Shown here in pieces: positions 2 through 26,409 of a stretch of 64,000 nucleotides of DNA. The notes beneath the pieces were generated by a model. It ran no database searches. It was given only the letters and a program-made list of their open reading frames with translations, and was not told where the DNA came from. A program made the translations under genes and the position numbers. Every line of letters starts with the position of its first letter. The stretch's first letter is position 1. The stretch is from Rufibacter tibetensis (GTDB lineage: Bacteria > Bacteroidota > Bacteroidia > Cytophagales > Hymenobacteraceae): positions 1,023,001 to 1,087,000 of the forward strand of contig NZ_CP012643.1 in NCBI RefSeq assembly GCF_001310085.1. Reading direction: 5' to 3'.

Positions 2-1150
2 GAAAACGGCTTGGATGGACTGGACAAGTTCTCCTTCATCCGCCGCAAAGAAAACTTCTCCGACCAGGAGCGCTATTCGGTAGTGACTGGCGGGGCTGGG
101 TTTGTGGGCACCAACTTAGCCAAGCGACTTTTAGAGCAAGGCAAACGCGTACTTATTTTCGATAACCTTTCCCGCACCGGCGTAGAGCGCAACCTGCAGT
201 GGCTGCACCAAAACTACGGCGACAAGCTGGAAGTGTATGTGGGCGATATCCGGGATTTGCATGCCGTGAAACGCGTCATGAAGTACGCCAATGAGGTGTA
301 TCATTTCGCGGCTCAGGTAGCGGTAACCACTTCCCTAACTGGCCCCATCCAGGACTTTGAAATCAATGCCCGTGGTGTGGTGAACGTGCTGGAAGCCATC
401 AGAGCCCAGGACAACCCACCGCCGTTGGTGTTTACGTCCACCAATAAAGTGTACGGCGGTCTGGAAGACCTTCGCTTCATCCAAAACGGCACCCGCTACA
501 ATCCCTCAGACAAGCACATCAAAGCCAATGGTATCTCTGAGGCGCGTCCGCTGGATTTTCATAGTCCGTACGGCTGCTCCAAAGGCGCTGCTGACCAGTA
601 CGTGGTAGACTACGCCAGAACCTATGGCATTCCGGCCGTGGTGTTTAGAATGAGCTGCATCTACGGCCCGCACCAATATGGCAACGAAGACCAGGGCTGG
701 GTGGCGCACTTCGCCATTAGAGCTATTGAGAATAAGGCCATCAGCATTTACGGCGATGGCAAGCAGGTGCGTGACATCCTGTTTGTGGAAGACCTGGTAG
801 ATGCGTTTTTGCTGGCGCAGGAGAACATGCAGGAGCTTTCGGGGCAGGCCTTCAACATTGGCGGTGGTGTGAAAAATACCACCAGTCTGCTTGAGTTGCT
901 GGATTTGATTGGCACCTACCGCGGCAAGAAAGTGAACCTAAGCTTCGGCGACTGGCGACCCGGCGACCAGCATTACTATGTGTCTGACATCCGCAAGTTC
1001 CACGAGGCCACCGGCTGGTACCCTAAAAACAGCGTGCAGGAAGGCGTAGCCAAACTCTACCAATGGCTGTGCGAGACCAGAGGCATTGAAGTCTCTTTGA
1101 AAGCTCCCGTAGCTGTGGAACAAGAAACCGATAACGTAGCAGTAGCATAA
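2..1150 (+). CDS. CDP-paratose 2-epimerase-like NAD-dependent sugar epimerase, 5' end outside window
   Basis: Extended short-chain dehydrogenase that should epimerise or otherwise rework a nucleotide-activated sugar in the cytoplasm. Counting from the TTG at 11, the Rossmann motif TGGAGFVG lies at residues 26-33, an acidic residue after beta-2 (IFDN) at 51, the STNKVYG motif at 143-149 and the catalytic Tyr187-xxx-Lys191 in SPYGCSK. STNKVYG plus the MSCIYGPHQ and GDGKQVRDILFVEDL stretches are what I know from the RfbE/CDP-paratose 2-epimerase branch. The reading frame is open to the first bases of the window and about 22 residues precede the first beta strand, so the true start is upstream and there may be an N-terminal extension or fusion. 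A GTG at 83 would cut into the first strand and is a poor start. It heads a same-strand run of sugar genes; the next gene begins 6 bases after its stop. Substrate is inferred only from family resemblance. Confidence 0.88.
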   Translation, partial: ENGLDGLDKFSFIRRKENFSDQERYSVVTGGAGFVGTNLAKRLLEQGKRVLIFDNLSRTGVERNLQWLHQNYGDKLEVYVGDIRDLHAVKRVMKYANEVYHFAAQVAVTTSLTGPIQDFEINARGVVNVLEAIRAQDNPPPLVFTSTNKVYGGLEDLRFIQNGTRYNPSDKHIKANGISEARPLDFHSPYGCSKGAADQYVVDYARTYGIPAVVFRMSCIYGPHQYGNEDQGWVAHFAIRAIENKAISIYGDGKQVRDILFVEDLVDAFLLAQENMQELSGQAFNIGGGVKNTTSLLELLDLIGTYRGKKVNLSFGDWRPGDQHYYVSDIRKFHEATGWYPKNSVQEGVAKLYQWLCETRGIEVSLKAPVAVEQETDNVAVA

Positions 1151-1156
1151 CTCATC

Positions 1157-2161
1157 ATGCAAACCGACCTATTCCAAGAAACCCTTCCCACCACTGAAGC
1201 CACCACCATGGCGGCGGCGGTGATTACCGCTCCCAAACAAGTAGAAATTCAGGAACTGGCGCTGCCAGAACCAAGCGCCACTCAAGTCCGCATAAAGCTG
1301 GAAGGCTGCGGGCTTTGCGCATCTAATATTCCCGTGTGGGAAGGCCGCGAGTGGTTCTCCTATCCTATCCCGGCCGGTAATCCGGGCCACGAAGGCTGGG
1401 GCATCATTGACGCCGTGGGCGCTGAGGTGAAAGACCTGAACGTAGGCGACCGCGTAGCCGCCCTTTCCTATAATTCCTATGCCGCTTATGACGTAGCCGA
1501 AGCCACCTCGCTGGTGATGTTACCAAAGTCCTTGGCGGGCAAACCGTTCCCCGGCGAGCCCTTGGGTTGCGCCATGAACATCTTCAAACGCTCTGACATT
1601 AAAGCAGGCCAGACCGTCGCTATTCTGGGCATCGGGTTTCTGGGAGCTTTACTCGTACAATTAGCCAAAGAGGCGGGCGCCAGGGTTATTGCCATCTCCC
1701 AGCGTCCGTTCTCTCTGGACATTGCCCAGCAATGCGGCGCCGATGAAATCATCCCGATGGATGACCACTACAAAATCATTGAGCGCGTGAAAGACCTCAC
1801 CGAAGGCGTTTTCTGTGACCGTGTGATTGAGTGCACCGGCAAAGAATGGCCCTTGAACCTAGCTGGCGAACTGTGCAAAGAGCGTGGCCGCCTCATCATT
1901 GCCGGCTTCCACCAGGACGGCATGCGCCAGGTGAACATACAGCTTTGGAACTGGCGCGGCCTGGACGTGATCAACGCTCACGAACGCGACCCGCAGATGT
2001 ACTTAGATGGTATCAAAGAAGCGGTAGAAGCTGTGGAAAGCGGCCGTTTGAAACCCGAGATGCTCTACACCCATACCTTCCCACTGGAGAAAATGGACGA
2101 GGCCTTCGCCGCCTTGACCGTTCGCCCGGACGGTTTCATGAAGGCGATTGTGACGATGTGA
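1157..2161 (+). CDS. Zinc-binding medium-chain dehydrogenase (MDR superfamily)
   Basis: A 334-residue alcohol/polyol-type dehydrogenase expected to oxidise or reduce a sugar or polyol hydroxyl with NAD(P). Catalytic zinc ligands are visible as Cys54 (GLCASN), His78-Glu79 (GHEGWG) and probably Cys138 (PLGCAMN). The nucleotide-binding loop GIGFLG is at 158-163. The four-cysteine lobe of the structural zinc site seen in classical alcohol dehydrogenases is absent; the region after Gly97 runs straight through (LSYNSYAAYDVAE), so this is a single-zinc type. ATG at 1157 gives about 17 extra residues before the core fold; the internal ATG at 1208 is a possible alternative start. Six bases separate it from the epimerase and a sugar oxidoreductase follows, so it probably belongs to the same nucleotide-sugar or glycoside pathway. 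The exact substrate cannot be read from sequence. Confidence 0.9.
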   Translation: MQTDLFQETLPTTEATTMAAAVITAPKQVEIQELALPEPSATQVRIKLEGCGLCASNIPVWEGREWFSYPIPAGNPGHEGWGIIDAVGAEVKDLNVGDRVAALSYNSYAAYDVAEATSLVMLPKSLAGKPFPGEPLGCAMNIFKRSDIKAGQTVAILGIGFLGALLVQLAKEAGARVIAISQRPFSLDIAQQCGADEIIPMDDHYKIIERVKDLTEGVFCDRVIECTGKEWPLNLAGELCKERGRLIIAGFHQDGMRQVNIQLWNWRGLDVINAHERDPQMYLDGIKEAVEAVESGRLKPEMLYTHTFPLEKMDEAFAALTVRPDGFMKAIVTM

Positions 2162-2183
2162 ATCTCGCATTAATGATTCGTAC

Positions 2184-2349
2184 GGACAGGTCGCGACCTG
2201 TCCTACCCGTTTCCCTACGCGGTGAACCACTCTTCATAGCAATGGGCAACGGGTATTCCTTTGAACAACCGTTTAGGACAGGTCGCGACCTGTCCCTACA
2301 ACCACAACAACCCGTTTCCCACCTCTTTTTTATAAAACAGGTGGGAAAC
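2184..2349. repeat. Palindromic repeat cluster (two copies of a 20-bp perfect palindrome plus a hairpin)
   Basis: The perfect palindrome GGACAGGTCGCGACCTGTCC occurs at 2184-2203 and again at 2276-2295, each followed by CTAC-type flanks and a CCCGTTTCCC stretch. Immediately after, GTTTCCCACCT (2314-2324) and its exact complement (2339-2349) form an 11-bp stem. The cluster fills the space between the dehydrogenase and the oxidoreductase. It looks like a REP-type intergenic element; no transposase is nearby. Confidence 0.8.
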
Positions 2350-2391: not shown

Positions 2392-3429
2392 ATGACTGAA
2401 GATACTTTACTAGAACCTACTCCAGAAGCAACTGCTTCTGCTTCAGATACCTTGAAACTCGGCTTTCTAGGCATCGGCTGGATTGGCCGTAACCGCATGG
2501 AAGCCATCGCCAATGCGGGCCTAGCCGAGGTAACCGCTGTGGTAGACCCGGCACCGCAAAACGTGGAGGAAGCGCAGAGAACTGCTCCTGCCGCCAAAGT
2601 GGGGGAAAGCATTGAAGATTTACTAACCGAAGATATAGACGGCGTTGTCATCGCTACGCCAAGCGCCTTCCATGCCGACCAATCTATCCAAGCTTTAGAG
2701 AGTGGAAAAGCCGTTTTCTGCCAAAAGCCATTAGGCAGATTTGCCGAGGAAACCAGACGCGTAGTGGAAGCAGCCCGCAAAGCTGATACGCTCTTAGGCG
2801 TGGACCTCTCCTACCGCAGCACCGTGGCCATGCGCAAAGTCTACGACCTGGTAAAATCCGGCGAACTGGGCGACATCTACGGCGTGGAACTGGTATTCCA
2901 TAACGCGTATGGTCCTGACAAACCCTGGTTCTACGACCCCAAGCTTTCTGGCGGTGGCTGTGTGATTGACCTAGGCGTGCACCTGGTGGATTTGGCGCTT
3001 TGGACCCTCAACTTCCCAGTCGTGGAAAGCGTGACCAGCAGCTTGTTCTCCAAAGGCCAACGCCTGACCTCTTCAGCAGAAACCGTAGAGGACTACGCTA
3101 CTGCCAGCATACAATTAGCCACTGGTCCGCACGTGCAATTGAGCTGTTCCTGGAACTTGCCCGCCGGGCAGGAAGCCATCATAAGTGCCACGTTCTACGG
3201 TACCAACGGCGGCGCGGCTTTCAAAAACGTGAACGGCTCTTTCTATGATTTCGTGGCCGAACGGTTCTGGGGCACTCAAACCGAGATCCTCGTTTCCCCG
3301 CCGGATACCTGGGGCGGACGAGCCGGGGTAGAGTGGGCGCAGCGCGTCGCCAAAGGCGAAAAATTTAACGAAGAAGCCGAGCAGTTTGTGAAAGTAGCAG
3401 AAGTACTGGACAAAATTTATGGTAGATAA
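2392..3429 (+). CDS. Gfo/Idh/MocA family oxidoreductase
   Basis: A 345-residue NAD(P)-dependent oxidoreductase of the glucose-fructose oxidoreductase / inositol dehydrogenase / rhizopine family, cytoplasmic. The Rossmann loop GIGWIG is at residues 27-32 and the conserved lysine motif that is usually EKP reads QKP here (111-113). The C-terminal half has the family's Gly-rich sheet (SGGGCVIDLGVHLVDLAL). The frame is open far upstream, back into the dehydrogenase gene, but the 2162-2391 stretch is occupied by palindromic repeats, so the ATG at 2392, just before the acidic leader and the Rossmann strand, is the sensible start. Its end overlaps the following GT4 gene by 11 bases, suggesting coupled translation. 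Family members act on free sugars, nucleotide sugars or inositol; with inositol-phosphate synthase in the same locus an inositol-type substrate is possible but unproven. Confidence 0.9.
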   Translation: MTEDTLLEPTPEATASASDTLKLGFLGIGWIGRNRMEAIANAGLAEVTAVVDPAPQNVEEAQRTAPAAKVGESIEDLLTEDIDGVVIATPSAFHADQSIQALESGKAVFCQKPLGRFAEETRRVVEAARKADTLLGVDLSYRSTVAMRKVYDLVKSGELGDIYGVELVFHNAYGPDKPWFYDPKLSGGGCVIDLGVHLVDLALWTLNFPVVESVTSSLFSKGQRLTSSAETVEDYATASIQLATGPHVQLSCSWNLPAGQEAIISATFYGTNGGAAFKNVNGSFYDFVAERFWGTQTEILVSPPDTWGGRAGVEWAQRVAKGEKFNEEAEQFVKVAEVLDKIYGR

Positions 3430-4543
3430 ACCGCATCGGCGCGTACTTATGACCACCGACAGCGTGGGTGGAGTCTGGACCTACAGTCTGGAGCTCATCC
3501 GTGCGTTGGCGCCGCATAACGTACACTTTTACCTCGCCACCATGGGTGCCGCCATCACCCTGCAACAACGGCAGGAATTGGTAGCCCTCACCAACGTGAC
3601 GGTGTACGAAAGTGAATACCAGCTGGAATGGATGGATAACCCCTGGGCTGAAGTAGATCAGGCCGGCGAGTGGCTCCTGGAACTAAGCGAACAGCTCAAT
3701 CCAGACCTCATCCACCTGAACAACTTCTGCCATGGCCAACTGCCCTGGAACAAGCCGGTGCTCATGGTCATTCATTCGTGCGTGCAGACTTGGTGGCGTG
3801 CCCTGAAAAGCGAAAATGCACCTTCAAACTGGAACACCTATTTTGAACGTGTGCGCGACGGGTTACACGCCGCTGATTTGGTGATAGCGCCTACCCAAGC
3901 CATGTTGGAAGAAGCCACTGCCGTTTATGGGCAGTTTACCAAAAAGAAGGTCATCAACAACGGTAGAGACCCCCATGCCTTTCACTTCGGGCAGAAGGAG
4001 CCGTTTATCTTCAGCATGGGACGCGTGTGGGATGAAGCCAAGAATATTGCCCTGCTCACCCAGGTAGCCGACCAGGTTTCCTGGCCTATATACATTGCTG
4101 GCGATGCCGTGCATCCATCCACTGGTGACAACAAGCTGTTCAAGAACGTCCATTTCCTAGGCAAGCTCTCGCAACGCGAAGTAGCTGATTGGCTTTCCCG
4201 CGCTTCGTTGTACGTGCTGCCTGCCATGTATGAGCCGTTCGGCCTGTCTATTCTGGAAGCCGCATTTTCGGGTTGTGCGTTAGTGTTAGGCAAGATTAAC
4301 AGCTTGAAAGAAATATGGGGCACCTCCGCGGAATACGTGAACACCAATGACGCCTACGGGCTTGCCACCATCCTCCAAAAACTGATCAAAGATGAATTCC
4401 TGCGCAACATCATGGCTTGCCGGGCGGTGAAAAAAGCACAGGACTATACCACAGAACTTATGGCCCAGGAGTACCTGCAAGCTTATGCTTCATTACCAAA
4501 ACGCGAGGCGGTAATTGCGCCTGATCCAGTGGAGACGTTGTAA
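3419..4543 (+). CDS. Glycosyltransferase family 4 protein
   Basis: A 374-residue retaining GT-B glycosyltransferase with the two-lobed layout of GT4. The N-terminal lobe carries the GGVWTYSLEL loop near residues 18-27 that binds the acceptor side, and the C-terminal lobe has the donor-binding EX7E motif, Glu272 to Glu280 within YEPFGLSILEAA. The ATG at 3419 lies inside the end of the preceding oxidoreductase gene (11-base overlap). No signal peptide or membrane segment is seen, so it should act at the cytoplasmic face on a soluble or lipid-linked acceptor. It is the first of four glycosyltransferases in a row. Donor and acceptor are unknown; the upstream nucleotide-sugar enzymes may supply its donor. 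Confidence 0.92.
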   Translation: MVDKPHRRVLMTTDSVGGVWTYSLELIRALAPHNVHFYLATMGAAITLQQRQELVALTNVTVYESEYQLEWMDNPWAEVDQAGEWLLELSEQLNPDLIHLNNFCHGQLPWNKPVLMVIHSCVQTWWRALKSENAPSNWNTYFERVRDGLHAADLVIAPTQAMLEEATAVYGQFTKKKVINNGRDPHAFHFGQKEPFIFSMGRVWDEAKNIALLTQVADQVSWPIYIAGDAVHPSTGDNKLFKNVHFLGKLSQREVADWLSRASLYVLPAMYEPFGLSILEAAFSGCALVLGKINSLKEIWGTSAEYVNTNDAYGLATILQKLIKDEFLRNIMACRAVKKAQDYTTELMAQEYLQAYASLPKREAVIAPDPVETL

Positions 4544-4798: not shown

Positions 4799-5938
4799 AT
4801 GAAACTGGTTTTATTTTACCACTCCCTCCTCTCAGACTGGAACCACGGCAATGCTCACTTCCTGCGCGGCATTGTGCAGGAACTCAAGAGCCGCGGCCAT
4901 GACGTGCAGGTCTATGAACCTAAAGACGGCTGGAGCCTCAGCAACCTCATCTCGCAATACGGCGAGGAGAAGATTGAGGAACTCCACCAATATTACCCGG
5001 GCCTGGACACCAACTTCTACGAGCTGGACACGCTCAATTTAGATGAGGTGCTGGCAGGTGCAGATTTGGTGCTAGTGCACGAATGGAACGACCATGACCT
5101 AGTGCGTTTGGTGGGCGAACATAGAAGCAAAAACAACTATCGGCTGCTCTTCCATGACACGCACCACCGTGCCGTGACCGAGCGCGAGAGCATGGCGGCT
5201 TACGACCTCAGCCACTATGACGGCGTACTGGCCTTCGGGAATGTCATCAAAGAATTGTACCTGAACGAAGGTTGGACGAAGAAAGCCTGGACCTGGCACG
5301 AAGCCGCCGATACCCGTATTTTCTATCCGCGTACCGCTACCGAGAAAGAAGGCGATTTAGTTTGGATTGGCAACTGGGGCGACGAAGAACGTACTGCCGA
5401 ACTACACGAATTCCTGCTGAACCCGGTGAAAGAACTGGGCCTGAAAGCCAAAGTATACGGCGTTCGGTACCCAGACCACGCTATTAAATCGCTGGCCGAG
5501 GCCGGTATTGAATACGGTGAGTGGCTGCCCAACTACAAAGCACCAGAGGTATTTGCCAAGTACAAAGTGACCGTGCACGTGCCGCGCAGGCCGTACGTAG
5601 AGGCTTTGCCGGGTATCCCCACCATCCGTCCGTTTGAGGCGCTGGCTTGCAGCATTCCGTTGATTACCGCGCCATGGGAAGATGCCGAACACCTATTCAC
5701 GCCTGGCCAAGATTTCCTGGTCGCCAAAAACGGTGAGGAAATGAAAAAACATCTACAAACTGTGTTGCAAGACCAACGGTTCACTCAAGACATGGTCGCC
5801 GACGGCCTGCGCACCATTAACCGCAGGCACTCCTGCTCGCACCGCGTGAACGAGTTGGAGGAGATCTGCGAAGAACTCGGCATCGCGCCCGAAAAAATCT
5901 ATCCATCTTCAAAATCCCCTGTGACCCATGCAGAATAA
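4799..5938 (+). CDS. CgeB-like glycosyltransferase (COG4641 type), paralogue 1
   Basis: A 379-residue GT-B-like protein of the CgeB/glycosyltransferase-1 group, no signal peptide or membrane segment. The N-terminus KLVLFYHSL with HGNAHFLRGIVQELKSRGHDV matches the opening of the two following paralogues. The C-terminal donor-binding region reads PTIRPFEALACSIPLITAPW at about residues 273-292, followed by a loop ending in DFLVAKNGEE, as in CgeB relatives. The middle HDTHHRAVTERE stretch is a plausible active-site loop. It begins after a composite repeat and a leader repeat, and its last 11 bases overlap the next paralogue. CgeB itself is linked to spore-surface polysaccharide in Bacillus; here the role is inferred to be serial glycosylation of the same product. 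Donor sugar unknown. Confidence 0.85.
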   Translation: MKLVLFYHSLLSDWNHGNAHFLRGIVQELKSRGHDVQVYEPKDGWSLSNLISQYGEEKIEELHQYYPGLDTNFYELDTLNLDEVLAGADLVLVHEWNDHDLVRLVGEHRSKNNYRLLFHDTHHRAVTERESMAAYDLSHYDGVLAFGNVIKELYLNEGWTKKAWTWHEAADTRIFYPRTATEKEGDLVWIGNWGDEERTAELHEFLLNPVKELGLKAKVYGVRYPDHAIKSLAEAGIEYGEWLPNYKAPEVFAKYKVTVHVPRRPYVEALPGIPTIRPFEALACSIPLITAPWEDAEHLFTPGQDFLVAKNGEEMKKHLQTVLQDQRFTQDMVADGLRTINRRHSCSHRVNELEEICEELGIAPEKIYPSSKSPVTHAE

Positions 5939-7055
5939 AAAGCTCAACATCGCCTTCTTCGGCTCTAGTCTGGTTTCCGCGTACTGGAACGGTGCCGCCA
6001 CCTACTACCGCGGCATCGTGCGGGCGCTGCATAACCGTGGCCACCAAGTGACTTTCTATGAACCCGATGCCTATCAGCGCCAGGAAAACCGCGACATTCC
6101 GGACCCCGAGTACGCCAAAGTAGTGGTGTATCCGGCCACCCAGGAAGCCGTGTACCAGATGCTGGAAGACGCGGCGTCCGCCGATGTGGTGGTTAAAGCC
6201 AGCGGCGTAGGCGTCTTTGACGAACTCTTGGAAGCTGAGGTGCTGAAACTACAAAGCCAGAACTGCCTCGTCATTTTCTGGGACGTGGACGCACCCGCCA
6301 CCTTGGACCGTGTAGAAAACGACCCCGCCGACCCGTTTAGAGCCCATGTTCCGCAATATGACCTTATTCTGACCTACGGCGGCGGCGACCCGGTCATCAA
6401 TGCCTACGCGAAATTAGTTGCCAAAAAATGCGTTCCGATTTACAACGCCTTGGACACTGCCACCCACTACCCAGTAGCCCCTGAAGAGCGATTCCAATGC
6501 GACCTCGCCTTCTTAGGAAACCGCCTGCCTGACCGTGAAGCCCGCGTAGAGCAGTTCTTTCTGGACGTAGCCACCAAATTACCAGAGCAGCAGTTCATCA
6601 TTGGCGGCAGTGGCTGGGGCGACAAACCCATGAGCGCGAATGTGAACTACATCGGCCACGTGTATACCAAAGAGCACAACGCCTTCAACTGCACGCCCAA
6701 AGCCGTCCTGAACATCAGCCGCGAGAGCATGGCTCGCTACGGCTTCTCGCCCGCCACCCGCGTGTTCGAGGCCGCCGGTGCCAGTGCCTGCATCATCACT
6801 GATTACTGGGAAGGCATCGACTTCTTCTTCGAGCCAGAAACCGAGATTTTGGTAGCCAAAGACGGTGCCGAAGTAGCCGAATTGCTACAAGGTTTAACAC
6901 CAGAACGCGCCAAAGCCATCGGCGAAGCTGCTTATAAAAAAGTCTTGGCCCAACACACCTACGGCCACCGCGCCGATGAACTGGAGCAGTTGCTCTTAAC
7001 TACACCACGCACTGCCACAGCCGCCCCTTCTTCGGCAGACGCCTTTGTGTCTTAA
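5928..7055 (+). CDS. CgeB-like glycosyltransferase (COG4641 type), paralogue 2
   Basis: A 375-residue paralogue of the genes on either side. It opens with NIAFFGSSLVSAYWNGAATY and has HNRGHQVTFYEPDA and NRDIPDPEYAK, which line up with the third paralogue almost position for position. The C-terminal motif RVFEAAGASACIITDYWEGI matches the RxFEAxAxxxxIIxDYWxG signature of the family. The start codon ATG at 5928 overlaps the end of paralogue 1, so the two are probably translated together. A strong terminator hairpin follows its stop, which separates it transcriptionally from paralogue 3. The Ala/Pro/Ser/Thr-rich tail is specific to this copy. Function by inference: glycosyl transfer in the same pathway. 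Confidence 0.87.
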   Translation: MQNKKLNIAFFGSSLVSAYWNGAATYYRGIVRALHNRGHQVTFYEPDAYQRQENRDIPDPEYAKVVVYPATQEAVYQMLEDAASADVVVKASGVGVFDELLEAEVLKLQSQNCLVIFWDVDAPATLDRVENDPADPFRAHVPQYDLILTYGGGDPVINAYAKLVAKKCVPIYNALDTATHYPVAPEERFQCDLAFLGNRLPDREARVEQFFLDVATKLPEQQFIIGGSGWGDKPMSANVNYIGHVYTKEHNAFNCTPKAVLNISRESMARYGFSPATRVFEAAGASACIITDYWEGIDFFFEPETEILVAKDGAEVAELLQGLTPERAKAIGEAAYKKVLAQHTYGHRADELEQLLLTTPRTATAAPSSADAFVS

Positions 7056-7367: not shown

Positions 7368-8495
7368 ATGAGTCAAAAACCGTTGAACATAGTCATCTTG
7401 GGTTTGTCTATTACCTCCAGTTGGGGCAATGGACATGCCACTACGTTTAGAGGCCTAGTGCGCGAGTTGCGCAACCGCGGCCACCACATCCTGTTCCTGG
7501 AGCGCGACGTACCGTGGTACGCCTCTAACCGTGATTTACCTAACCCGGAATATTGCCAAACCGAGTTGTACCAGTCACTGGAAGATCTACAGGCCCGCTT
7601 TGCGGAACAGGTGCGAGATGCTGATTTCGTGCTGGTGGGCTCATACGTACCCGAAGGCGTGACTGTGGGTGAATGGGCTATCCAGACCGCTAAAGGCGTG
7701 ACCGGCTTCTATGACATTGATACCCCGGTGACTTTGGCCAAACTGGCCCGCGAAGACTACGAGTACCTGCACCCGCGCCTCATACCGCAATACGACATGT
7801 ACTTGTCATTTACCGGCGGCCCTACGCTTGAGAAACTGGAAAAAGAGTTCGGTTCGCCCATGGCCCGGCCGCTGTACTGCTCGTTTGACCCGGAACTGTA
7901 CTTCCCTGAGCCGCAGGAAGAGAAAGTGTGGGACTTAGGGTATTTAGGCACGTACTCCGATGACCGTCAGCCGCCGCTGGAGAAACTGATGCTGGATGCT
8001 GCCCGCGAGTGGCCCATCGGCTCCTTCGTGGTGGCTGGTCCGCAGTACCCGGATTCCATTCAGTGGCCGGAGAACTGTGAGTACATCCACCACCTGCCGC
8101 CTGCCGAGCACCGCAAGTTCTACAACCGCCAGCGCTTCACCCAAAACATTACCCGCGCCGATATGATCAAGGCCGGCTACTCGCCCAGCGTGCGCCTCTT
8201 TGAAGCCGCCGCTTGCGGGACGCCCATCATTTCGGATTACTGGGACGGATTGAACGAGCTGTTTGAATTCGGGAAAGAGATCTTGGTCTCCTACTCCGCG
8301 GAGGACACATTGAACTTTCTGATCCATTTACCAGAAAACGATCGCACCTCAATCGCCGAACGCACCCGCCAGAAGGTTTTAACTTATCATACCGCCGCCC
8401 ACCGGGCCCAAGAGTTGGAAAGCTACATCTTGGAAGTCCTGAGTTCTGAGTCTAAAGCCCTGAAGGAAAAAAAGGAATTAGAGTTAGGAAGTTAG
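7368..8495 (+). CDS. CgeB-like glycosyltransferase (COG4641 type), paralogue 3
   Basis: A 375-residue paralogue of the two preceding genes, closest to paralogue 2: NGHATTFRGLVREL, NRGHHILFLERD and NRDLPNPEY align with NGAATYYRGIVRAL, NRGHQVTFYEPD and NRDIPDPEY. The C-terminal family motif is RLFEAAACGTPIISDYWDGL. ATG at 7368 is preceded by the leader repeat rather than by an overlapping gene, so unlike paralogue 2 this copy may have its own transcript start. A hairpin terminator follows at 8523. No membrane segment is visible. Tandem triplication suggests three successive or alternative sugar additions; this is inference. The Lys/Glu-rich tail is likely unstructured. Confidence 0.87.
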   Translation: MSQKPLNIVILGLSITSSWGNGHATTFRGLVRELRNRGHHILFLERDVPWYASNRDLPNPEYCQTELYQSLEDLQARFAEQVRDADFVLVGSYVPEGVTVGEWAIQTAKGVTGFYDIDTPVTLAKLAREDYEYLHPRLIPQYDMYLSFTGGPTLEKLEKEFGSPMARPLYCSFDPELYFPEPQEEKVWDLGYLGTYSDDRQPPLEKLMLDAAREWPIGSFVVAGPQYPDSIQWPENCEYIHHLPPAEHRKFYNRQRFTQNITRADMIKAGYSPSVRLFEAAACGTPIISDYWDGLNELFEFGKEILVSYSAEDTLNFLIHLPENDRTSIAERTRQKVLTYHTAAHRAQELESYILEVLSSESKALKEKKELELGS

Positions 8496-12274: not shown

Positions 12275-12290
12275 ACAACTACAAGCCTAA

Positions 12291-19130: not shown

Positions 19131-20456
19131 TTACATGGTCTCTATCAAGTCCTGGTAGTAATCCATGCCCAGGTGCGTGATCAGGTCTTCGCCCATCATG
19201 TGACGTAGGGTGTTTTGCAGTTTGATCAACTGCTTGAAGATGTCGTGCTCTGGGTTGAGACCTTCGGCGGTTTGCGGAGACTTGAAGTAGAACGACAGCC
19301 ACTCCTGAATACCAGACATTCCGGCTCTCTTTGCCAGGTCACCAAACAAGGCCAGATCTAATACCAGCGGGGCTGCTAAGATAGAGTCACGGCACAAGAA
19401 GTTGATCTTGATCTGCATCTGGTAGCCCAACCACCCGAAGATGTCAATGTTATCCCAGCTTTCTTTGTTGTCACCGTGCGGAGGGTAATAGTTGATGCGT
19501 ACTTTATGGTAGATGTCGCCATATAATTCTGGGTTCATCTCGGGCTGCAGAATGTCTTCCAAGACGCTCAGTTTAGAGACTTCTTTGGTTTTGAAGTTGT
19601 CTGGGTCATCCAGCACCAGACCGTCGCGGTTACCCAAGATATTGGAGGAAAACCAGCCTTTCACGCCCAGGGCTCTGGCTTGCAGACCAGGGGCCAGAAT
19701 GGTTTTCATCAGGGTTTGACCCGTCTTGAAATCTTTGCCCCCAATTGGAGTTTCAGTTTGTCTAGCCAATTCCAGGAGGGCCGGAATATCACAGGTTAAG
19801 TTGGGGGCTCCATTCATGAACGGCACGCCCAACTTAATGGCCGCGTAGGCATAAATCATAGATGGCGCAATTGCCGGATTATTGTTTTGCAAGCCTTCCT
19901 CAAACGCAGCAAGGGTTTCGTGCACGGCAGAGGACTCAATGTATTTCTCAGTAGAACCGCACCACACCATCACCAGGCGGGCACAGTCATTGGCTTCCTT
20001 GAAGTTCTCAATGTCATCCATCAGAGCCTTGGCCAGATCAGCTTTGGTAGCGGCCTCTTTGATGTGGTCACCGTCCAGGTTGGCGATGTATGCCTTGTCA
20101 AATACCGCTTTCATGGGCTTGATGGCTTCCAATTCGGCTTTCACGGCGTGCAGCATCATCGGCTCAATCACCTTGGCTTTCATGGCCGCTTCAAACACGT
20201 TGTCTGAGTACACATCCCATCCGCCGAAGACAATATCATTCAGGTGGGCAAGCGGAACAAAGTCTTTGATTTTAGGATGGCGGTTCTCGGTACGCTTTCC
20301 TAACCGGATGTTGCCCATCTGGGTTAAGGAACCAACCGGCTGCGCCAGCTCTTTTTTAACGGCTTCTACCCCGGCAATCAGCGTGGTAGCGACCGCGCCT
20401 AGTCCAGGCATCAACAAACCTAATTTTCCTTCTGCTTTTTGTACGACATTATGCAT
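19131..20456 (-). CDS. ino1: myo-Inositol-1(3)-phosphate synthase
   Basis: A 441-residue NAD-dependent enzyme that converts glucose 6-phosphate to inositol 3-phosphate. The start of the Rossmann fold reads GLLMPGLGAVATTLIAGVEA; downstream are NLDGDHIKEAATK, the strongly conserved TPIGGKDFKTGQT (usually GDDFKSGQT) and SSNILGNRDGLVLDD (usually NHLGNNDG), with catalytic lysines KDFK and the later KVRINYYPP stretch. The frame is open 38 codons further upstream, but those codons lack family similarity and the ATG at 20456 starts right at the conserved N-terminus. It is a single gene here. Inositol phosphate feeds inositol lipids, inositol glycosides or compatible solutes; its presence inside a glycosyltransferase locus suggests an inositol-containing product, which is inference. 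Confidence 0.95.
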   Translation of the reverse strand: MHNVVQKAEGKLGLLMPGLGAVATTLIAGVEAVKKELAQPVGSLTQMGNIRLGKRTENRHPKIKDFVPLAHLNDIVFGGWDVYSDNVFEAAMKAKVIEPMMLHAVKAELEAIKPMKAVFDKAYIANLDGDHIKEAATKADLAKALMDDIENFKEANDCARLVMVWCGSTEKYIESSAVHETLAAFEEGLQNNNPAIAPSMIYAYAAIKLGVPFMNGAPNLTCDIPALLELARQTETPIGGKDFKTGQTLMKTILAPGLQARALGVKGWFSSNILGNRDGLVLDDPDNFKTKEVSKLSVLEDILQPEMNPELYGDIYHKVRINYYPPHGDNKESWDNIDIFGWLGYQMQIKINFLCRDSILAAPLVLDLALFGDLAKRAGMSGIQEWLSFYFKSPQTAEGLNPEHDIFKQLIKLQNTLRHMMGEDLITHLGMDYYQDLIETM

Positions 20457-20703
20457 GTAACACGAGTTTATGGGTGGGGAATGATGATTGTTTTTCTCAG
20501 TAATGAATCCTAAGAAAGGTTTTAGTAAATAGGTAACAGGTAAGAAGAAGGCTTTCAATGGCAGGCTCAACTGTAAAGCAAAACCATCAGAATACCTTTG
20601 TTTTAGGGCTTCTTTTCATAAAATGGTCGTAAAATCCGGGATTTACAACCTTCTTGAAAGCTTCTACTCACCTCAGGTAAACCGCATTACTCTTTTTTTG
20701 CGC

Positions 20704-21306
20704 CTAAGGTTGTAATTCGCCAGTGTCATTTATTAGAAGAATCCGAGCCGTTTCTTCGTATACTTCAATTATGCTCACGCTGGCCGGACTGATCTCCAGG
20801 CGCTGAAACATATCCAGCGGAATGCCGGCGTAATAAGCCACGGCCGCTTTAATCAAATCTGAGTGGCTCACCACGGCCACGGTTTCGTGCGGATGTTTGG
20901 CGCACAGTTTCTGTAAACCGGCCATAAAACGGGCCTGCGCCTCCAGCATCATCTCACCACCCGGGATGCGGGTGAAGCTTCTGAAGGTGTTAAAGCGTTG
21001 GAATTCTGCGTTGCCGGACAACTCTTCGAAGACAAGATTCGTCCAGTCGCCAAAGTTTAACTCTAGAAAAGCCTCGTCTATGCTGGTCTGGAGCCCTTGC
21101 GCCTGAGCCAGAAAGTCGGCGGTTTGCCTGGTTCGCTCCAGTGGGCTACTGTATATAGCGGAGATAGGCAGATGGGAAAGCCGCTGGGCCAATTGCCGGG
21201 CCTGAGCTTCTCCTTCTTCGTTTAAAAGGACACCCGGCGTACGGCCAGAAAGACGCTTGCCCACCGAGTTGGTAGTAGCGTGACGGATCAGTAAAAGTTT
21301 GGTCAT
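20704..21306 (-). CDS. Histidine phosphatase family protein
   Basis: A 200-residue phosphohydrolase of the phosphoglycerate-mutase-like branch. The phospho-acceptor motif LLIRHATT is at residues 4-11, followed by LSGRTPGVLLNEEG, the second motif IYSSPLERTRQTA and the distal catalytic histidine in VVSHSDLIKAA. TGA-type family members such as CobC, GpmB and others hydrolyse small phosphate esters; specificity cannot be read. The ATG at 21306 begins three residues before the first strand; an in-frame extension to 21351 has no family support. It is upstream of and on the same strand as inositol-phosphate synthase, separated by 247 bases, so it could dephosphorylate that enzyme's product, but no experiment or close context proves it. 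Confidence 0.9.
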   Translation of the reverse strand: MTKLLLIRHATTNSVGKRLSGRTPGVLLNEEGEAQARQLAQRLSHLPISAIYSSPLERTRQTADFLAQAQGLQTSIDEAFLELNFGDWTNLVFEELSGNAEFQRFNTFRSFTRIPGGEMMLEAQARFMAGLQKLCAKHPHETVAVVSHSDLIKAAVAYYAGIPLDMFQRLEISPASVSIIEVYEETARILLINDTGELQP

Positions 21307-21533
21307 GAAGCTGATTTGTAGACACAGGTGTTTTCTTCCTGTTTTAAGCAAAGTAGCACTAAAAGAGAGAATGCCGTGTCTTTAAACGGCTCAGGGGTAA
21401 AACCGTTCTGCTGTTATGATTTTGCCAATAAGTAGCCTCTGCTTGGCCTTTCCGGTTATCTCGCTAGTAAAATGACCTTATTAATGATTTTAGAGGATCT
21501 ATATATAACCTAAACTAAAAATCAGCCGTTCGC

Positions 21534-22745
21534 ATGAATCAGCAGGACACCTGCTTTCAGCATTATCCCCTCTTCTGGCTACTCCTTCAACTAAGGCACT
21601 GGGCAGAAGCACAACACAAACTCAGAAAAGCATTGGAGAATACGAGAAACAAACCTGTTTTAAAGATTGGAGTCTTAACCTTTCACCGCTGTATCAATTA
21701 TGGAAGCTACTGGCAGGCGCGCTGTCTGGCCGAGGGTTTACAAGCGCGCGGCCATGAGGCCGTGATCCTGGACCACGACTCACGCCGGGTGAACCTGGTA
21801 GAATGGAAATGCGCGTTTCAGCCGGTATTGCCAACGCCGGTTCCAGCCTCAGACCGTCCGCTGTACCGCACGAAAATCCGGAAGTTTTTTGACGTGTTTG
21901 ACACCTTGCCGCTTTCGCCCCGTTTTGAGCTGGACAACCCAGAAGAGATGGAGGAATACGATGTGGTAGTGGTGGGCAGCGATGAAGTCTGGAACATGTC
22001 GCACCCGTGGTACGGCCGTTGCCCCATTTTTTACGGCGATGGCGTGAAAGCGCAACACCTCATTTCGTACGCAGCCAGTTTCGGAAATTATGACGCCTCC
22101 TGGGGTCTGGAGCAAGACTGGGCCGAGAAACTTCGGAACAACTTTGACGCTATCTCGGTACGCGATGCTAACTCACAGACCATTATCCAGAACGCCCTCG
22201 GGTTTGAGCCCGAAATGGTGCTGGACCCCTGTCTGCAGTTCCCCATCACGCCTGATGAAAGAGACCATGAAATCCTGAATAGACGGTACGTAGCCGTATA
22301 CGGCCATAACTTCACTGAGTCTTTCGCCCGCGAAATCCGGCAGTACGCTGACAGCCAGAACCTGCCGCTCATCAGCTTCGGATACCGCAACGACTGGGCC
22401 GACGAGCAATGGATCACCACCGATCCGCATGATTTTGCGCATTTCATGGCTAAAGCCGAGGCGGTGGCTACCAACTTCTTCCACGGTTGCGTGTTTGCCT
22501 TACGCAACGCCAAGCCGTTTGTGTGTGAGTCCTCGCCGTACCGGAGGCATAAACTGCAAGGCCTAATGGCCAAGATTGGCGGCGAGAAACATTTGCTTCC
22601 GGAAGGCACGCCTTCCACAATTTACAAAACCCTGTTAAGCGAAACATTGAACCCGGGTATCCTGCAGAAGATTGACCAGTTGCGCCAAACTTCCAACGCG
22701 TACCTTGACCGGGCCCTGGTGTTAACTCAAGTGCAAGCAGTATGA
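21534..22745 (+). CDS. Polysaccharide pyruvyl transferase family protein
   Basis: A 403-residue enzyme of the CsaB/PS_pyruv_trans family, which transfers pyruvate from phosphoenolpyruvate to form a ketal on a sugar. Family marks are the N-terminal KIGVLTFHRCINYGSYWQA, VVVGSDEVWNM in the middle, YAASFGNYD, SVRDANSQTI, DPCLQFP and near the end ATNFFHGCVFALRNAKPFV. The first 40 residues before LKIGVL are not conserved and could reflect a later start. The stop overlaps the start of the FrhB-type gene (ATGA), so the two form a coupled pair; this pairing is common in polysaccharide loci. It would add a negatively charged pyruvate to the locus product. Confidence 0.9.
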   Translation: MNQQDTCFQHYPLFWLLLQLRHWAEAQHKLRKALENTRNKPVLKIGVLTFHRCINYGSYWQARCLAEGLQARGHEAVILDHDSRRVNLVEWKCAFQPVLPTPVPASDRPLYRTKIRKFFDVFDTLPLSPRFELDNPEEMEEYDVVVVGSDEVWNMSHPWYGRCPIFYGDGVKAQHLISYAASFGNYDASWGLEQDWAEKLRNNFDAISVRDANSQTIIQNALGFEPEMVLDPCLQFPITPDERDHEILNRRYVAVYGHNFTESFAREIRQYADSQNLPLISFGYRNDWADEQWITTDPHDFAHFMAKAEAVATNFFHGCVFALRNAKPFVCESSPYRRHKLQGLMAKIGGEKHLLPEGTPSTIYKTLLSETLNPGILQKIDQLRQTSNAYLDRALVLTQVQAV

Positions 22746-24130
22746 AGGAATTGGTAAGCCCCCGTGATATTGTTACATCTGGTTTGTGCATTGGCTGCGG
22801 CAGTTGCGTGGCCCAGGCCAATCGGCCAGACACCCGCATGGACTTTGACGGGTATGGACAGCTGAAGCCGAAGGGAGACCCGCAGTGGTTTAAAACCAAA
22901 TCGGAAAGCTTTTCCAGAACCTGCCCGTTCTCGCCCAAAGCCAAGAATGAAGACTATTTAGCCGCGAACCTCTACCCTACTGCCCCGGTGGTGGATGCTG
23001 CGCTGGGAAGGTTCCAAACCGCTTACGTAGGCCACGTAGCCGAAGAAGACTTCCGGATGCAGGGCAGCTCCGGCGGCATGGTTACCTGGGTAGCCACCGA
23101 GCTGATGCGCCAAGGGTTGATTGACGGCGTGGCCCACGTCATTGCCACGGAAGACCCGCAGGAAGACGGCCGTTTTTTCAAGTACCGCATCGCGCGTACC
23201 GAGGCCGAGATCCGCGAGGGAGCTAAGTCGCGGTACTACCCTATTGAGCTGTCAGAGGTGCTCTCATTGGTGAAAGAGGTACCCGGCCGCTATGCCGTGG
23301 TGGGGATTCCGTGCTTTATCAAGGCCGTGCAGTTGCTGCGCGAAGAAGACCCCATCATCCGGGAACGCATTCAGTACACCCTCGGGCTTTTCTGCGGACA
23401 CATGAAGAGCGCCCGCTTTGTGGAAAGCTTTGCCTGGCAGCTGAACGTGCCGGTAGACCAGGTAGATAAGGTAGATTACCGCCAGAAAGACCCTAGCCGC
23501 CCAGCCAACTGGTACACCGCCAAACTTACCCTAAAAGACGGCCAAATTGTGAACCGTGACTGGTGGCACCTCGCGGACGGTGATTGGGGCGCCGGTTTCT
23601 ACATGAACTCGGCCTGCAACTACTGCGATGACGTAGTGGCGGAGACGTCAGATATCTCCTTCGGCGATGCCTGGGTAGAGCCGTATTCCTCTGATGGGCG
23701 CGGCACCAATGTGGTGGTGGTCCGTTCGCCTTTGGTAGACAAACTGGTGGCCAATGCCATCCAGGAAGGTAGGCTGCAATTAGAGACCGTAGATGCCAAA
23801 TTTATAGAGCAAACGCAGGCCGCCGGTTTTCGCCAACGCCGCGAAGGGTTGGCCTACCGCCTGACCTGGAGCCGTAGCGGCGTCACACCCTGCAAACGCG
23901 TTACCCCTGATGACAAAACCCCTACCCGCCAGCGCAAACTCATCTACCGGATGCGTTATCATATCTCGGCGGGCAGCCACAAGATGGCTAAACTAGCGCA
24001 CCAATTAAATGCGCCCAAACTGTACATCAACTGGGCCCGCATTGCGCTCGCCTCTTACCATGGATTTGCCTACCATCAAGGCAATTTTACTGAGATCAAG
24101 AATCGGTATAAACAGCTAAAAGGCCAATAA
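22742..24130 (+). CDS. Coenzyme F420 hydrogenase/dehydrogenase beta-subunit family (FrhB-type) protein
   Basis: A 462-residue iron-sulfur flavoprotein-like protein. It opens with the cysteine motif GLCIGCGSC (residues about 15-23), a shortened ferredoxin-type cluster site, plus CPF some 45 residues later. The FrhB C-terminal domain shows GSSGGMVTWVATEL, VGIPCFIKAVQLLR, LFCGHMKSARFV and NYCDDVVAETSDISFGDAW. Bacteroidota do not generally make F420; members in polysaccharide loci next to pyruvyl transferases are of unknown reaction, possibly a flavin-dependent reduction of a sugar intermediate. The start overlaps the pyruvyl transferase stop by four bases. The last four codons and the stop lie inside a perfect hairpin. 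Confidence 0.88.
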   Translation: MKELVSPRDIVTSGLCIGCGSCVAQANRPDTRMDFDGYGQLKPKGDPQWFKTKSESFSRTCPFSPKAKNEDYLAANLYPTAPVVDAALGRFQTAYVGHVAEEDFRMQGSSGGMVTWVATELMRQGLIDGVAHVIATEDPQEDGRFFKYRIARTEAEIREGAKSRYYPIELSEVLSLVKEVPGRYAVVGIPCFIKAVQLLREEDPIIRERIQYTLGLFCGHMKSARFVESFAWQLNVPVDQVDKVDYRQKDPSRPANWYTAKLTLKDGQIVNRDWWHLADGDWGAGFYMNSACNYCDDVVAETSDISFGDAWVEPYSSDGRGTNVVVVRSPLVDKLVANAIQEGRLQLETVDAKFIEQTQAAGFRQRREGLAYRLTWSRSGVTPCKRVTPDDKTPTRQRKLIYRMRYHISAGSHKMAKLAHQLNAPKLYINWARIALASYHGFAYHQGNFTEIKNRYKQLKGQ

Positions 24131-24255: not shown

Positions 24256-24348
24256 TTGTCATCTTGGAAAGATCTTATGGGCGAACAGTAGTGGCGCGCT
24301 TAGTTAAGGCCATTCTAGTTCTCTCACAAGGTCCTTTCAAGATGATAA
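24256..24348. repeat. About 90-bp inverted repeat family, copy 3, running into the GT9 gene
   Basis: Starts TTGTCATCTTGGAAAGATCT and ends CCTTTCAAGATGATAA; it is the reverse-oriented relative of the copies at 7166-7256 and 12081-12170. Its last 12 bases encode the final residues and stop codon of the minus-strand GT9 gene. Confidence 0.75.
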
Positions 24349-25278
24349 AGGAGTGGATTGTGCCTTGTCCTGTAGCTTCTCCAACTCACCCACTACTCGT
24401 GTGATCACACCTGCCCAATCATCGGCTACTTCCTGACGGAATAGGCGTGCGGTAGGGTACCAGGGACTGTCTTCGCGGTCATCCATCCAGCGCCAGTCGG
24501 CGTGGTAGTGCAGGAGGGTCCAGACGGGAACGTTCAAGGCTCCGGCCAGGTGCACGGGCATTGAATCCACAGAAATCAACAGATCCAAGCCTTTGATGAC
24601 GCGGGCATAGTCGTACAAACTGAACTGGCCGGGGTGAATCCCGAACCCTTCCTGCCAACTGGCATTAGGGGCATTTTCTTGCAGAATGTAAAGATTGATG
24701 TCTTGTACCTCGGCTAAAGGAGCCAGAAAGTGAAACGGAATAGACCGGTGTGGATTCCAGTCACCGGGTTTCCAGACCAGGCCCACGTTCAGCTTTCCTT
24801 CTTCTCCGGGAAGCGGCAGGGGTTCTACCTTTAGATAGGGAATCTGGGACGGAATTGTGTTTACCGTGGTTCGGAAAATGTGGGTTAGTTCCATAACTTC
24901 CACGTCCACGTCGTACTCCACCTCTGGGGTGCCGTCATGCAGGGGCAGGAGCCGGTCTATGGTGGGGATGGTCTCCAGAAGCGGAATCAAGGGAGCTTGT
25001 GCCCACACAATAACCTCCTTGGCAATAGCCTTAATCAACGGTGCGAACCGGATAAACTGGATGGTGTCCCCCAAGCCATGGTAGCAGCGCACCAGCACCC
25101 GTTTGCCTTGCAGCGAAGAGCCGTCCCACACGTATTGGAAATGCCTTGGTAAGTGCCAGCAGGGCTTGCCGGCGCGTTCTTTTAAGACGGCATCGCTGTG
25201 TTTCCAAGCGCCTTCAAATGTTCCCCGGCGCATGTTCAGCATCCAAACATCAGTTTCTTCCTGAGTTTCCTGACTCAT
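24337..25278 (-). CDS. Glycosyltransferase family 9-like (heptosyltransferase superfamily) protein
   Basis: A 313-residue GT-B protein. The N-lobe contains GLGDTIQFIRFAPLI at about 69-83, the usual GDxxxxxPxL-type opening of the GT9 family, and the C-lobe has LNVGLVWKPGDWNPHRSIPF, then YDYARVIKGLDLLISVDSMPVHLAGALNVPVW, the conserved GT9 donor-site run. The first about 55 residues look like the tail of a TPR-type helix pair (RGTFEGAWKHSDAVLKERAGKPCW). ATG at 25278 is the only suitable start. The C-terminal LSS and the stop fall inside a repeat element. It should add a sugar using an ADP- or GDP-type donor. It is transcribed with, but separated by a hairpin from, the xylosidase-like gene upstream. 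Confidence 0.87.
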   Translation of the reverse strand: MSQETQEETDVWMLNMRRGTFEGAWKHSDAVLKERAGKPCWHLPRHFQYVWDGSSLQGKRVLVRCYHGLGDTIQFIRFAPLIKAIAKEVIVWAQAPLIPLLETIPTIDRLLPLHDGTPEVEYDVDVEVMELTHIFRTTVNTIPSQIPYLKVEPLPLPGEEGKLNVGLVWKPGDWNPHRSIPFHFLAPLAEVQDINLYILQENAPNASWQEGFGIHPGQFSLYDYARVIKGLDLLISVDSMPVHLAGALNVPVWTLLHYHADWRWMDDREDSPWYPTARLFRQEVADDWAGVITRVVGELEKLQDKAQSTPLSS

Positions 25279-25360: not shown

Positions 25361-25380
25361 TAGACTTGTATTTGAAAGAA

Positions 25381-26265
25381 CTAAGCGTATCTACGCATCA
25401 TAAGCGCGCAGAAATCTGCAAATTCTTCTACGTTTTGGGGTGGGCTGGTGTGGTGCGGCTGTAGGCCTTTGTGTTCTGGGGTAAAGCAGAACGTAGCAGT
25501 TACGTCAAACTCATCCAGCTTTTTCATGACGTGGTCAAACCATTTTTCCGCATCCGGACGGAGCCAATCGGCCCAGCTCAAGCCGGTACGCAGCTTCTTC
25601 ACGCCTAAGTCCCGGAGGTGCTGCACGGCGGCATCTAAGCGGTGGTCTTCAAAGTGGAACCACTGGCAGATGCCCATTTCTGGGGTGTAATCTGAAAAGT
25701 ATTTATGAGACAGTTTAGGAGATCCGTCTTCGCGCAGCAAGCCCATGTGGAAATGGCGGTAGTACGAAGAACCTTCGGCTTCGCGGTGGCGCGTGGTGGC
25801 TTCCCAGGCTTGCGGCAAATCATAGAGGCTGTACCAGAAAATGCGGTCCACGCGGCCCATGAGCAACTCGGCCGTTTTCTGAAGTCCGAACTCCTGCACT
25901 TCCTCGGCCCCGAAGGACGAAATACCCACTTCGGTTACCCACACGGGCAAGTCGGTTACGGCTTCAATCTCGGCGATCTTGTCAGGCCACTCATGGATGC
26001 TCCAAAGGTTCCAATCCAGCGGAAAACCGTGTACGGCCACGGCGTTGAGGTCATCTAAGGTTCCCTGGTCTTTTAACTTGATGATGAAATTGGGGTCAAT
26101 GGGCGAAATACCACCTAACACGCGAAGAACGTCTGGCTTCTCGGCTTTACAGGCTTGGGCGCCTAGTTTCACCATTTCGGAGAAGATCTTCCAGTCCGGA
26201 TCAATCTCGTACGCCCAGTGTGATTTGTTGTTTGGTTCGTTCCAGAATTTAACTGCTTCTATCAT
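25381..26265 (-). CDS. Xylosidase-like glycoside hydrolase with circularly permuted TIM-barrel motif order
   Basis: A 294-residue protein that resembles GH39-like beta-xylosidases. The acid/base motif WNEP, normally in the middle of the chain at strand 4, is at residues 8-11 (Glu10) here; the nucleophile motif WVTEVG follows with Glu112; HGFPLDW and FWYSLYDL are the strand 6 and 8 stretches. The segments that normally open the barrel, KKLRTGLSWADWLRP (223-238), FDVTATFCFTP (253-263) and HHTSPP with EFADFCALMMRRY (271-293), come last. Joining the C-terminus to the N-terminus restores the usual order, so this is a circular permutation rather than a truncation. No signal peptide. A TAA sits just upstream in frame, so the start is real. 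Confidence 0.85.
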   Translation of the reverse strand: MIEAVKFWNEPNNKSHWAYEIDPDWKIFSEMVKLGAQACKAEKPDVLRVLGGISPIDPNFIIKLKDQGTLDDLNAVAVHGFPLDWNLWSIHEWPDKIAEIEAVTDLPVWVTEVGISSFGAEEVQEFGLQKTAELLMGRVDRIFWYSLYDLPQAWEATTRHREAEGSSYYRHFHMGLLREDGSPKLSHKYFSDYTPEMGICQWFHFEDHRLDAAVQHLRDLGVKKLRTGLSWADWLRPDAEKWFDHVMKKLDEFDVTATFCFTPEHKGLQPHHTSPPQNVEEFADFCALMMRRYA

Positions 26266-26268
26266 AGT

Positions 26269-26409
26269 TTATTTCTTAGCATCTCTTTTGGCCGGGTGAA
26301 CGGCCCAGGGTTTGGCGCGGTAATCAGGAAAAGGCAGCAGAAACGCCAACCCGCTCACCTGTTGACAGACGGTGCAGGCACCAGCATCAACATTCCTTGG
26401 CTGAGTCAT
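26269..26409 (-). CDS. Small CxxC ORF directly upstream of the permuted hydrolase
   Basis: A 46-residue ORF, ATG at 26409 and TAA at 26269-26271, ending only 3 bases before the ATG of the xylosidase-like gene. The product begins MTQPRNVDAGACTVCQQVSG and continues FLLPFPDYRAKPWAVHPAKR to a Lys-rich end. It has one CxxC pair (CTVC), which could bind metal as a dimer or be redox-active. Tight spacing and a natural-looking composition argue for a real, co-translated small protein; there is no family I can assign. It could also be a chance ORF. Confidence 0.5.
   Translation of the reverse strand: MTQPRNVDAGACTVCQQVSGLAFLLPFPDYRAKPWAVHPAKRDAKK

Follow-up and report, generated by a model that had tools for sequence, protein, structure and literature searches.

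A conserved sugar-pathway gene set found in many bacterial phyla, and its circularly permuted glycosidase-like barrel, at a locus of Rufibacter tibetensis

Introduction

The nearest existing descriptions of the gene cluster considered here are two NCBIfam protein families, TIGR04290 and TIGR04295. Both are hypothetical-equivalog protein models, and we found no pathway, product or permuted glycosidase described under either name. Single members of the cluster have better-known relatives. PslG of Pseudomonas aeruginosa, to which an unpermuted homologue of its glycosidase-like barrels leads by structure, takes part in polysaccharide synthesis, and DgpA, the closest solved structure to its Gfo/Idh/MocA oxidoreductase (103 bits), is an enzyme that oxidises glycosides at C3.

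The cluster lies in a 64,000-nucleotide stretch of the Rufibacter tibetensis genome (contig NZ_CP012643.1, positions 1,023,001 to 1,087,000), hereafter the window, which is part of a genome of 5.41 Mb; the nearest named loci are those of Rufibacter and the Hymenobacteraceae. An original prediction, made from the letters alone, had read positions 2-26409 as a single pathway for one glycoside, possibly based on inositol or a deoxy-sugar and decorated with methyl and pyruvyl groups. All of the sugar-acting families that it listed are present at the places given for them (Pfam). The comparisons below, across genomes of many phyla, narrow the pathway to a conserved core, to which an inositol module with an unusual glycosidase is attached in some lineages.

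Conservation of the core gene set

The methyltransferase of the window, a member of TIGR04290, served as the search query, so that it is present in every locus by choice. One genome per species was scanned with a four-sequence alignment; at least 570 relatives were confirmed and the best 80 were kept. These 80 loci come from 14 named phyla and one unassigned record. Core genes were counted only where 9 kb or more of DNA preceded the methyltransferase, which left 62 loci (the other 18 of the 80 had less than 9 kb), and a core gene was scored as present when it matched at 60 bits or more. All nine core genes were found in 42 of the 62 loci, and in 40 of these 42 they stand in a single order, as follows: epimerase, 2-epimerase, Zn-dehydrogenase, Gfo/Idh/MocA oxidoreductase, GT4, CgeB1, CgeB2, CgeB3, methyltransferase. 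In the window the core is represented by these features:

1..1150, plus strand (epimerase 11-1150): C-terminal part of a fusion of glycosidase barrel and 2-epimerase; the window edge cuts this 687-aa protein
1157..2161, plus strand: Zn-dependent dehydrogenase (ADH_zinc_N, 65 bits; in 49/62 loci)
2392..3429, plus strand, start inferred (frame 1831-3429): Gfo/Idh/MocA oxidoreductase (Pfam; the frame as scanned included a false N-terminal stretch)
3419..4543, plus strand: GT4-type glycosyltransferase (Pfam; 57/62 loci)
4799..5938, plus strand: CgeB-type glycosyltransferase 1 (PF13524, Glyco_trans_1_2, 117 bits, cut-off 25; 59/62 loci)
5928..7055, plus strand: CgeB-type glycosyltransferase 2 (PF13524, 134 bits, cut-off 25; 60/62 loci)
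7368..8495, plus strand: CgeB-type glycosyltransferase 3 (PF13524, 122 bits, cut-off 25; 62/62 loci)
13339..14154, plus strand: TIGR04290 (meth_Rta_06860) methyltransferase (352 bits, curated cut-off 300)

Because the core recurs in 14 named phyla, a chance arrangement is excluded. In the cross-genome search that the original prediction had proposed, co-occurrence was kept in different phyla, and the claim of a single pathway stands for this gene set: that the core genes form one pathway is nearly certain. The Rta_06860-type protein that the original prediction named as a companion of CgeB-like and epimerase genes is the window's own CmoB-like methyltransferase. A carboxymethyl-transferring, CmoB-like reaction was considered for it as a possibility; the similarity covers about 135 residues around the S-adenosylmethionine-binding core (50 bits).

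Outside the window's own family, identity to the window proteins is commonly 55-70%, with GT4 lower, and such conservation across phyla suggests a product useful to many bacteria. In a phylum-wide sample of 296 genomes the system was seen only in the window's own genome; this sporadic pattern is that of a gene set gained and lost as a unit, and horizontal transfer of the set is probable. In the Rufibacter loci, intervening genes push some core genes beyond the 10-kb flank, where they were missed. A Geminicoccaceae plasmid carries a TIGR04295 B12-type radical SAM protein inside the core, adjoining GT4 (L150:9125-10420), and TIGR04295 was also matched in two further loci (L095 and L099). Neither dehydrogenase lies in the stretch from this Geminicoccaceae cluster; a cluster with TIGR04295 and without dehydrogenases suggests that the decoration varies.

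The epimerase at the left edge of the window is the C-terminal half of a longer protein, the frame of which starts 914 bases outside that edge. The glycosidase-like barrel takes up residues 1 to about 328 of this protein, and the remainder is the epimerase; an SDR and a second epimerase are encoded upstream of it, also outside the window. Among 59 genomes (the window's own and 58 relatives) the unpermuted barrel and a TIGR04290 match over cut-off occur in the same 21 genomes, and 20 of these 21 have an open frame that fits the fusion (686-704 residues), the frame in the other (G023) being only 354 residues long. In Xanthomonas sacchari R1 (L063:7989-11245) the barrel domain of the fusion is split over two overlapping frames; this copy may be disrupted or mis-sequenced.

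The composition of the core bears on two further explanations. That the glycosyltransferases decorate a protein seems very improbable. CgeB-type transferases are linked to Bacillus spore-surface maturation, which counts for this explanation; inositol synthesis would not be expected with it, and no conserved acceptor gene appeared among the clustered unmatched open reading frames, in a search that was not thorough and left the largest family unresolved. It is less probable still, indeed scarcely credible, that the locus breaks a glycoside down. Two or three of its proteins resemble glycosidases, the Gfo/Idh/MocA enzyme is near DgpA of glycoside breakdown, and the window holds a 3-keto-disaccharide hydrolase gene. 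That gene, however, had no match beyond the close kin of the window, and the constant part of the locus consists of four glycosyltransferases, nucleotide-sugar epimerases and a methyltransferase.

Intervening and optional genes

The supposition that the whole of positions 2-26409 belongs to the pathway is not supported. Eight intervening genes (8651-13085 and 14244-18568) stand outside the conserved set and, among the loci compared, had matches in the window's own family alone. Six had matches in Rufibacter-type loci only: those for the protein at 8651, a carboxylesterase, the 3-keto-disaccharide hydrolase, a polysaccharide deacetylase, a PycTM-type protein and a DUF2254 protein. The other two, a NUDIX gene and the hydrolase gene at 17105-18568, were matched only inside the window's family among the loci compared. 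These eight genes look like passengers. The PycTM-type product is a two-helix membrane protein (14953-15561; Pfam 101 bits, PADLOC PycTM 1e-19), and its gene is followed by that of the DUF2254 membrane protein (15780-17126).

The right-hand part of the locus differs in its distribution. Its features, with the last of the passengers, are:

17105-18568: clan-A-like hydrolase (Apiosidase, E=0.0052, a weak match under cut-off)
19131..20570, minus strand: inositol-phosphate synthase, long type, inositol module (PF07994, 348 bits)
20704..21351, minus strand: histidine phosphatase adjoining the synthase (PF00300, 174 bits)
21534..22745, plus strand: PS_pyruv_trans, polysaccharide pyruvyl transferase family, optional (Pfam)
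22742..24130, plus strand: FrhB-type protein paired with the pyruvyl transferase, optional (Pfam)
24337..25278, minus strand: GT9-like protein, optional (26 bits, cut-off 22)
25381..26265, minus strand: circularly permuted clan-A-like glycosidase barrel (permGH), inositol module

Elsewhere in the same genome there is a second long-type inositol-phosphate synthase (3282358-3283578).

Ten alphaproteobacterial plasmid loci, one per species or strain (L064, L065, L148-L155), were compared with the window. A UDP-glucuronate-decarboxylase-like gene is present in all ten. Five of them (Sinorhizobium meliloti, two Roseomonas, Paracoccus and Ensifer) hold inositol-3-phosphate synthase, histidine phosphatase and permGH, and in the other five the stretch contains neither synthase nor permGH. 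Outside the family, matches to the pyruvyl transferase and FrhB were limited to three of the ten (S. meliloti, Paracoccus and Ensifer; in the Ensifer locus FrhB is inside the stretch and the pyruvyl transferase is cut by its edge), and GT9 had a single match outside the window's family, in Paracoccus at 36%. Homologues of the histidine phosphatase occur in alphaproteobacterial, Ignavibacteria and Fibrobacter loci. Since they recur in alphaproteobacteria, the synthase, phosphatase, permuted protein and pyruvyl pair of the window are the counterpart of a module of another phylum. As to the predicted decoration with methyl and pyruvyl groups, the methyltransferase is in all loci, being the search query, and the pyruvyl transferase/FrhB pair is optional.

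The permuted glycosidase and its tie to inositol synthesis

The original prediction had described a permuted xylosidase-like protein, and the permutation proves to be a true circular one in all 25 homologues. The permGH protein of the window (294 residues) begins at the strand that carries the acid/base glutamate (FWNEPNN), and its C-terminal end corresponds to the N-terminal third of its unpermuted homologue. Against a profile of 42 unpermuted homologues, each of 25 permuted sequences gave two matching segments whose order is exchanged. Rotation of the permuted sequences in silico improved the best single match in 25/25 (mean 146 bits before, 240 bits after) and turned it into one continuous piece in 24. 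The reciprocal control gave the expected outcome in 40/42, not all. The NEP acid/base motif is kept in 24/25 sequences and the nucleophile motif in 25/25, as W[VIA]TE in 21 and W-V-S-E in 4. A motif filter dropped 4 of the 25 permuted sequences from a first rotation test and from the glycosidase tree; the final test used all 25. The glycosidase and motif sets exclude two duplicate S. meliloti stretches (L146 and L147).

An AlphaFold model of permGH, for which the alignment comprised only eight sequences, is an eight-strand (beta/alpha)8 barrel (mean pLDDT 80.4, with values below 50 in four stretches; pTM 0.84). Foldseek matched it to eight solved structures at E<=0.001, which are generic or designed barrels and include no natural clan-A glycosidase; natural GH5 enzymes appear only from E 0.0024. 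As to GH39, the family of PslG, Pfam offers only a Glyco_hydro_cc match at 18.9 bits, under the cut-off of 21. PermGH has the barrel and both catalytic glutamate motifs of clan A, with a strand order other than the usual one.

In the glycosidase tree, which contains the long branches L114, L122, L076 and L111, a branch with SH-aLRT 100 separates the permuted forms (21 sequences) from the rest, which fits a single origin. For an unpermuted planctomycete homologue (model pLDDT 73) Foldseek gave 529 matches at E<=0.001, the first of them PslG (E 1.7e-14); the 50 that were listed are glycoside-active barrels. Stand-alone unpermuted barrels adjoin the methyltransferase gene in Planctomycetota and Chthoniobacterales loci, and five loci (L108, L109, L112, L128 and L129) hold an unpermuted stand-alone barrel where other loci hold the permuted one; this may be the form from which the permuted gene arose. 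We also considered whether permGH is a broken gene and rejected this: 14 other genomes of the 59 have the same permuted form at 80-91% identity, and 60-74% identity is kept in other phyla. The protein, called plainly 'beta-xylosidase' in several records, is a natural catalytic barrel with new ends near the acid/base residue.

Whole genomes were searched for 50 of the 80 loci, and synthases of both types, long (PF07994) and short (TIGR03450-like), were counted. PermGH was present in 22 of these 50 named genomes. Inositol-phosphate synthase accompanied it in all 22 as compared with 4/28 genomes lacking it (Fisher p 1.7e-10, uncorrected for kinship). The two genes were 78-132 bases apart in ten of the 22 genomes, 2.6-12 kb apart in six and on different contigs in six. 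The set of 59 genomes gave a similar picture, with a synthase in 15/15 genomes with permGH (in one as fragments only) vs 7/44 without, and with both genes within about 10 kb in 10 of the 15. The proposal of an inositol-based product survives in part: as far as sequence comparison reaches, inositol synthesis is tied to one variant of the system, and most loci with a fused barrel are without the synthase.

PermGH might be taken as a plain substitute for the fused barrel. Among the same 50 genomes, 22 had the fusion without permGH, 14 an unfused epimerase with permGH, two neither the fusion nor permGH and three both, the 2-epimerase not being seen in the locus in the remaining nine (Fisher p 1.9e-6). 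A tree of 42 rows left only three independent pairs on well-supported branches, none of them against substitution, a number at which a sign test cannot reach 0.05. We do not claim substitution, since the tie with the synthase is tighter.

That core and inositol genes are instead two separate pathways that happen to adjoin, with permGH and the synthase on an independent route, we regard as improbable. Many core loci lack the inositol module, and in two genomes of one genus (G018 and G023) the permGH-synthase pair and the core share a contig but are separated by more than 1 Mb, as this explanation would have it. Against it, the modules are joined in alphaproteobacteria, in Burkholderiales-type loci and in Rufibacter, and permGH was found in none of 38 relatives without TIGR04290 and in none of 295 other genomes sampled from the phylum.

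Promoter motifs

Upstream regions were searched for an EcfG-type motif, GGAAC-N16/17-NGTT; the consensus given in PMC7083833 is GGAAC-N16-CGTT. The motif precedes the first epimerase in seven of ten loci from alphaproteobacteria (six of them from Rhizobiaceae and one from Geminicoccaceae; those without it are the two Roseomonas and Paracoccus) vs 3/41 others, and before the dehydrogenase in 6/8 alphaproteobacterial loci vs 0/49 others. Shuffled alphaproteobacterial upstream regions had it at a rate of 1.3%. Within the operon it is rare (0/10 before each of CgeB2, GT4 and the 2-epimerase; 1/10 before the methyltransferase). By their sequence, then, the Rhizobiaceae operons begin at general-stress-type promoter motifs.

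Just past the cluster on S. meliloti pSymB (L064:28401-31800) there are several more EcfG-type motifs, near genes of DUF1003, DUF3618, BON and DUF4142 type, as if in a general-stress neighbourhood. Term searches in the main texts of PMC6180224, PMC3616915 and PMC3892343 returned no expression data on the cluster, and a like search in the main text of PMC8877191 returned one reference only and no such data. The EcfG-dependent glycosyltransferases #3505-3509 of Sphingomonas melonis, as they appear in the portion of PMC6599016 available to us, could not be tied to the cluster.

Proposed pathway

We give about even chances to the following reading: the locus encodes one pathway in two parts, a core for glycoside synthesis and an inositol module, which is induced by stress in the Rhizobiaceae and yields a probable protectant. 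The order of steps that we infer is as follows. The epimerases would make activated sugars, from which the GT4 and three CgeB-type transferases would assemble a short chain. The Zn-dehydrogenase and the Gfo/Idh/MocA enzyme would oxidise or invert a ring carbon, and the methyltransferase would cap the chain, giving a small glycoside or oligosaccharide that is probably cytosolic. In one variant the synthase and phosphatase would supply inositol as an acceptor or building block, and permGH might trim, edit or transfer on the inositol-linked glycan. The optional pyruvyl transferase, FrhB and GT9 would belong to the attached module. In the Rhizobiaceae the general stress response would switch the pathway on, which makes a stress protectant the probable product.

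A cell-surface glycan is the explanation to be weighed most closely against this, and we consider it possible though rather unlikely. The product of the cluster would then sit on a glycolipid, lipopolysaccharide or exopolysaccharide as a cap or side branch, with the export machinery encoded elsewhere. The synthesis of surface polysaccharides usually involves pyruvyl transferase/FrhB pairs and glycosidases like PslG, and PslG is the nearest fold to the unpermuted barrel. On the other side, the gene tables of nine annotated clusters, which are incomplete and were read with no profile search made, show no flippase, polymerase, ligase or polysaccharide exporter; this favours a soluble product, within the limits of those tables. 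A simple hydropathy scan gave no clear membrane segment in any core protein of the window (the dehydrogenase peaks at 1.88).

Several observations weigh against the two-part stress pathway. An exporter may have escaped listing, since the plasmid collection has incomplete gene tables. The absence of the synthase from most fused-barrel loci means that inositol is not part of every product; 4/6 TIGR04290-positive relatives without permGH still have a synthase, which makes the tie weak within the family; the R. tibetensis genome has its second synthase away from the locus, and several genomes hold two or three. The p-values of the associations carry no correction for kinship. As for stress control, the EcfG-type motif precedes the synthase in 2/5 and the pyruvyl transferase in 0/2 alphaproteobacterial loci, and in the Rhizobiaceae the first epimerase and the dehydrogenase share one divergent region, so their motif counts are not independent.

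More tentatively, and with odds that we put somewhat below even, the product could represent an undescribed class of stress metabolite: a methylated inositol-based cytosolic oligosaccharide, spread horizontally in more than 12 phyla and induced by general stress in rhizobia, with permGH acting as a transglycosidase or editor on the inositol end. In its plainer form, the reading is that the product is probably a single small sugar compound, methylated and in many cases linked to inositol. S. meliloti 1021 and 2011 carry the cluster, and Rhizobium etli CFN 42 has a variant without the inositol module in the stretch read; these copies make the product approachable by gene deletion and mass spectrometry.

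Comparison with known systems

In the open-access literature searched, which leaves subscription journals largely outside, no description of the gene set or its families was found, in agreement with the original suggestion of an undescribed pathway. The enzyme families are known; the pathway that they form appears to be new, although a description elsewhere is possible. The window methyltransferase is a TIGR04290 protein, and TIGR04295, found in the Geminicoccaceae core, has no match in the compared stretch of the window's cluster. A link to UDP-apiose was set aside; PMC5607165, in the portion available, reports no conserved flanks.

Mycothiol synthesis is similar in that inositol would be glycosylated, and TIGR03450 (mycothiol_INO1) is the model closest to the short-type synthase in the alphaproteobacterial loci. 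It differs in that the window synthase is of the long type, and the mycothiol enzymes are replaced here by several transferases and a methyltransferase. Mycothiol itself was rejected as the product: the Paracoccus synthase scores 450 bits, under the TIGR03450 cut-off of 638, and 0/50 genomes are over the cut-off.

The epimerase half of the fusion appears, from its sequence, to have CDP-tyvelose 2-epimerase as its closest relative (the closest solved structures, at 308 and 306 bits, with the next family at 126), and unlike that enzyme it carries a fused barrel. PslG and other clan-A enzymes resemble the barrels of this system, PslG as best structural match of the unpermuted homologue and by a weak sequence match to permGH (E 0.022). 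The stand-alone protein of the window is circularly permuted, however, and the other copy is fused to the epimerase; both adjoin CgeB-type genes. Circularly permuted GH70 enzymes likewise have a catalytic barrel with moved ends, and GH70 is related to GH13, not to clan A. The permuted clan-A barrel is a new form of a known fold.

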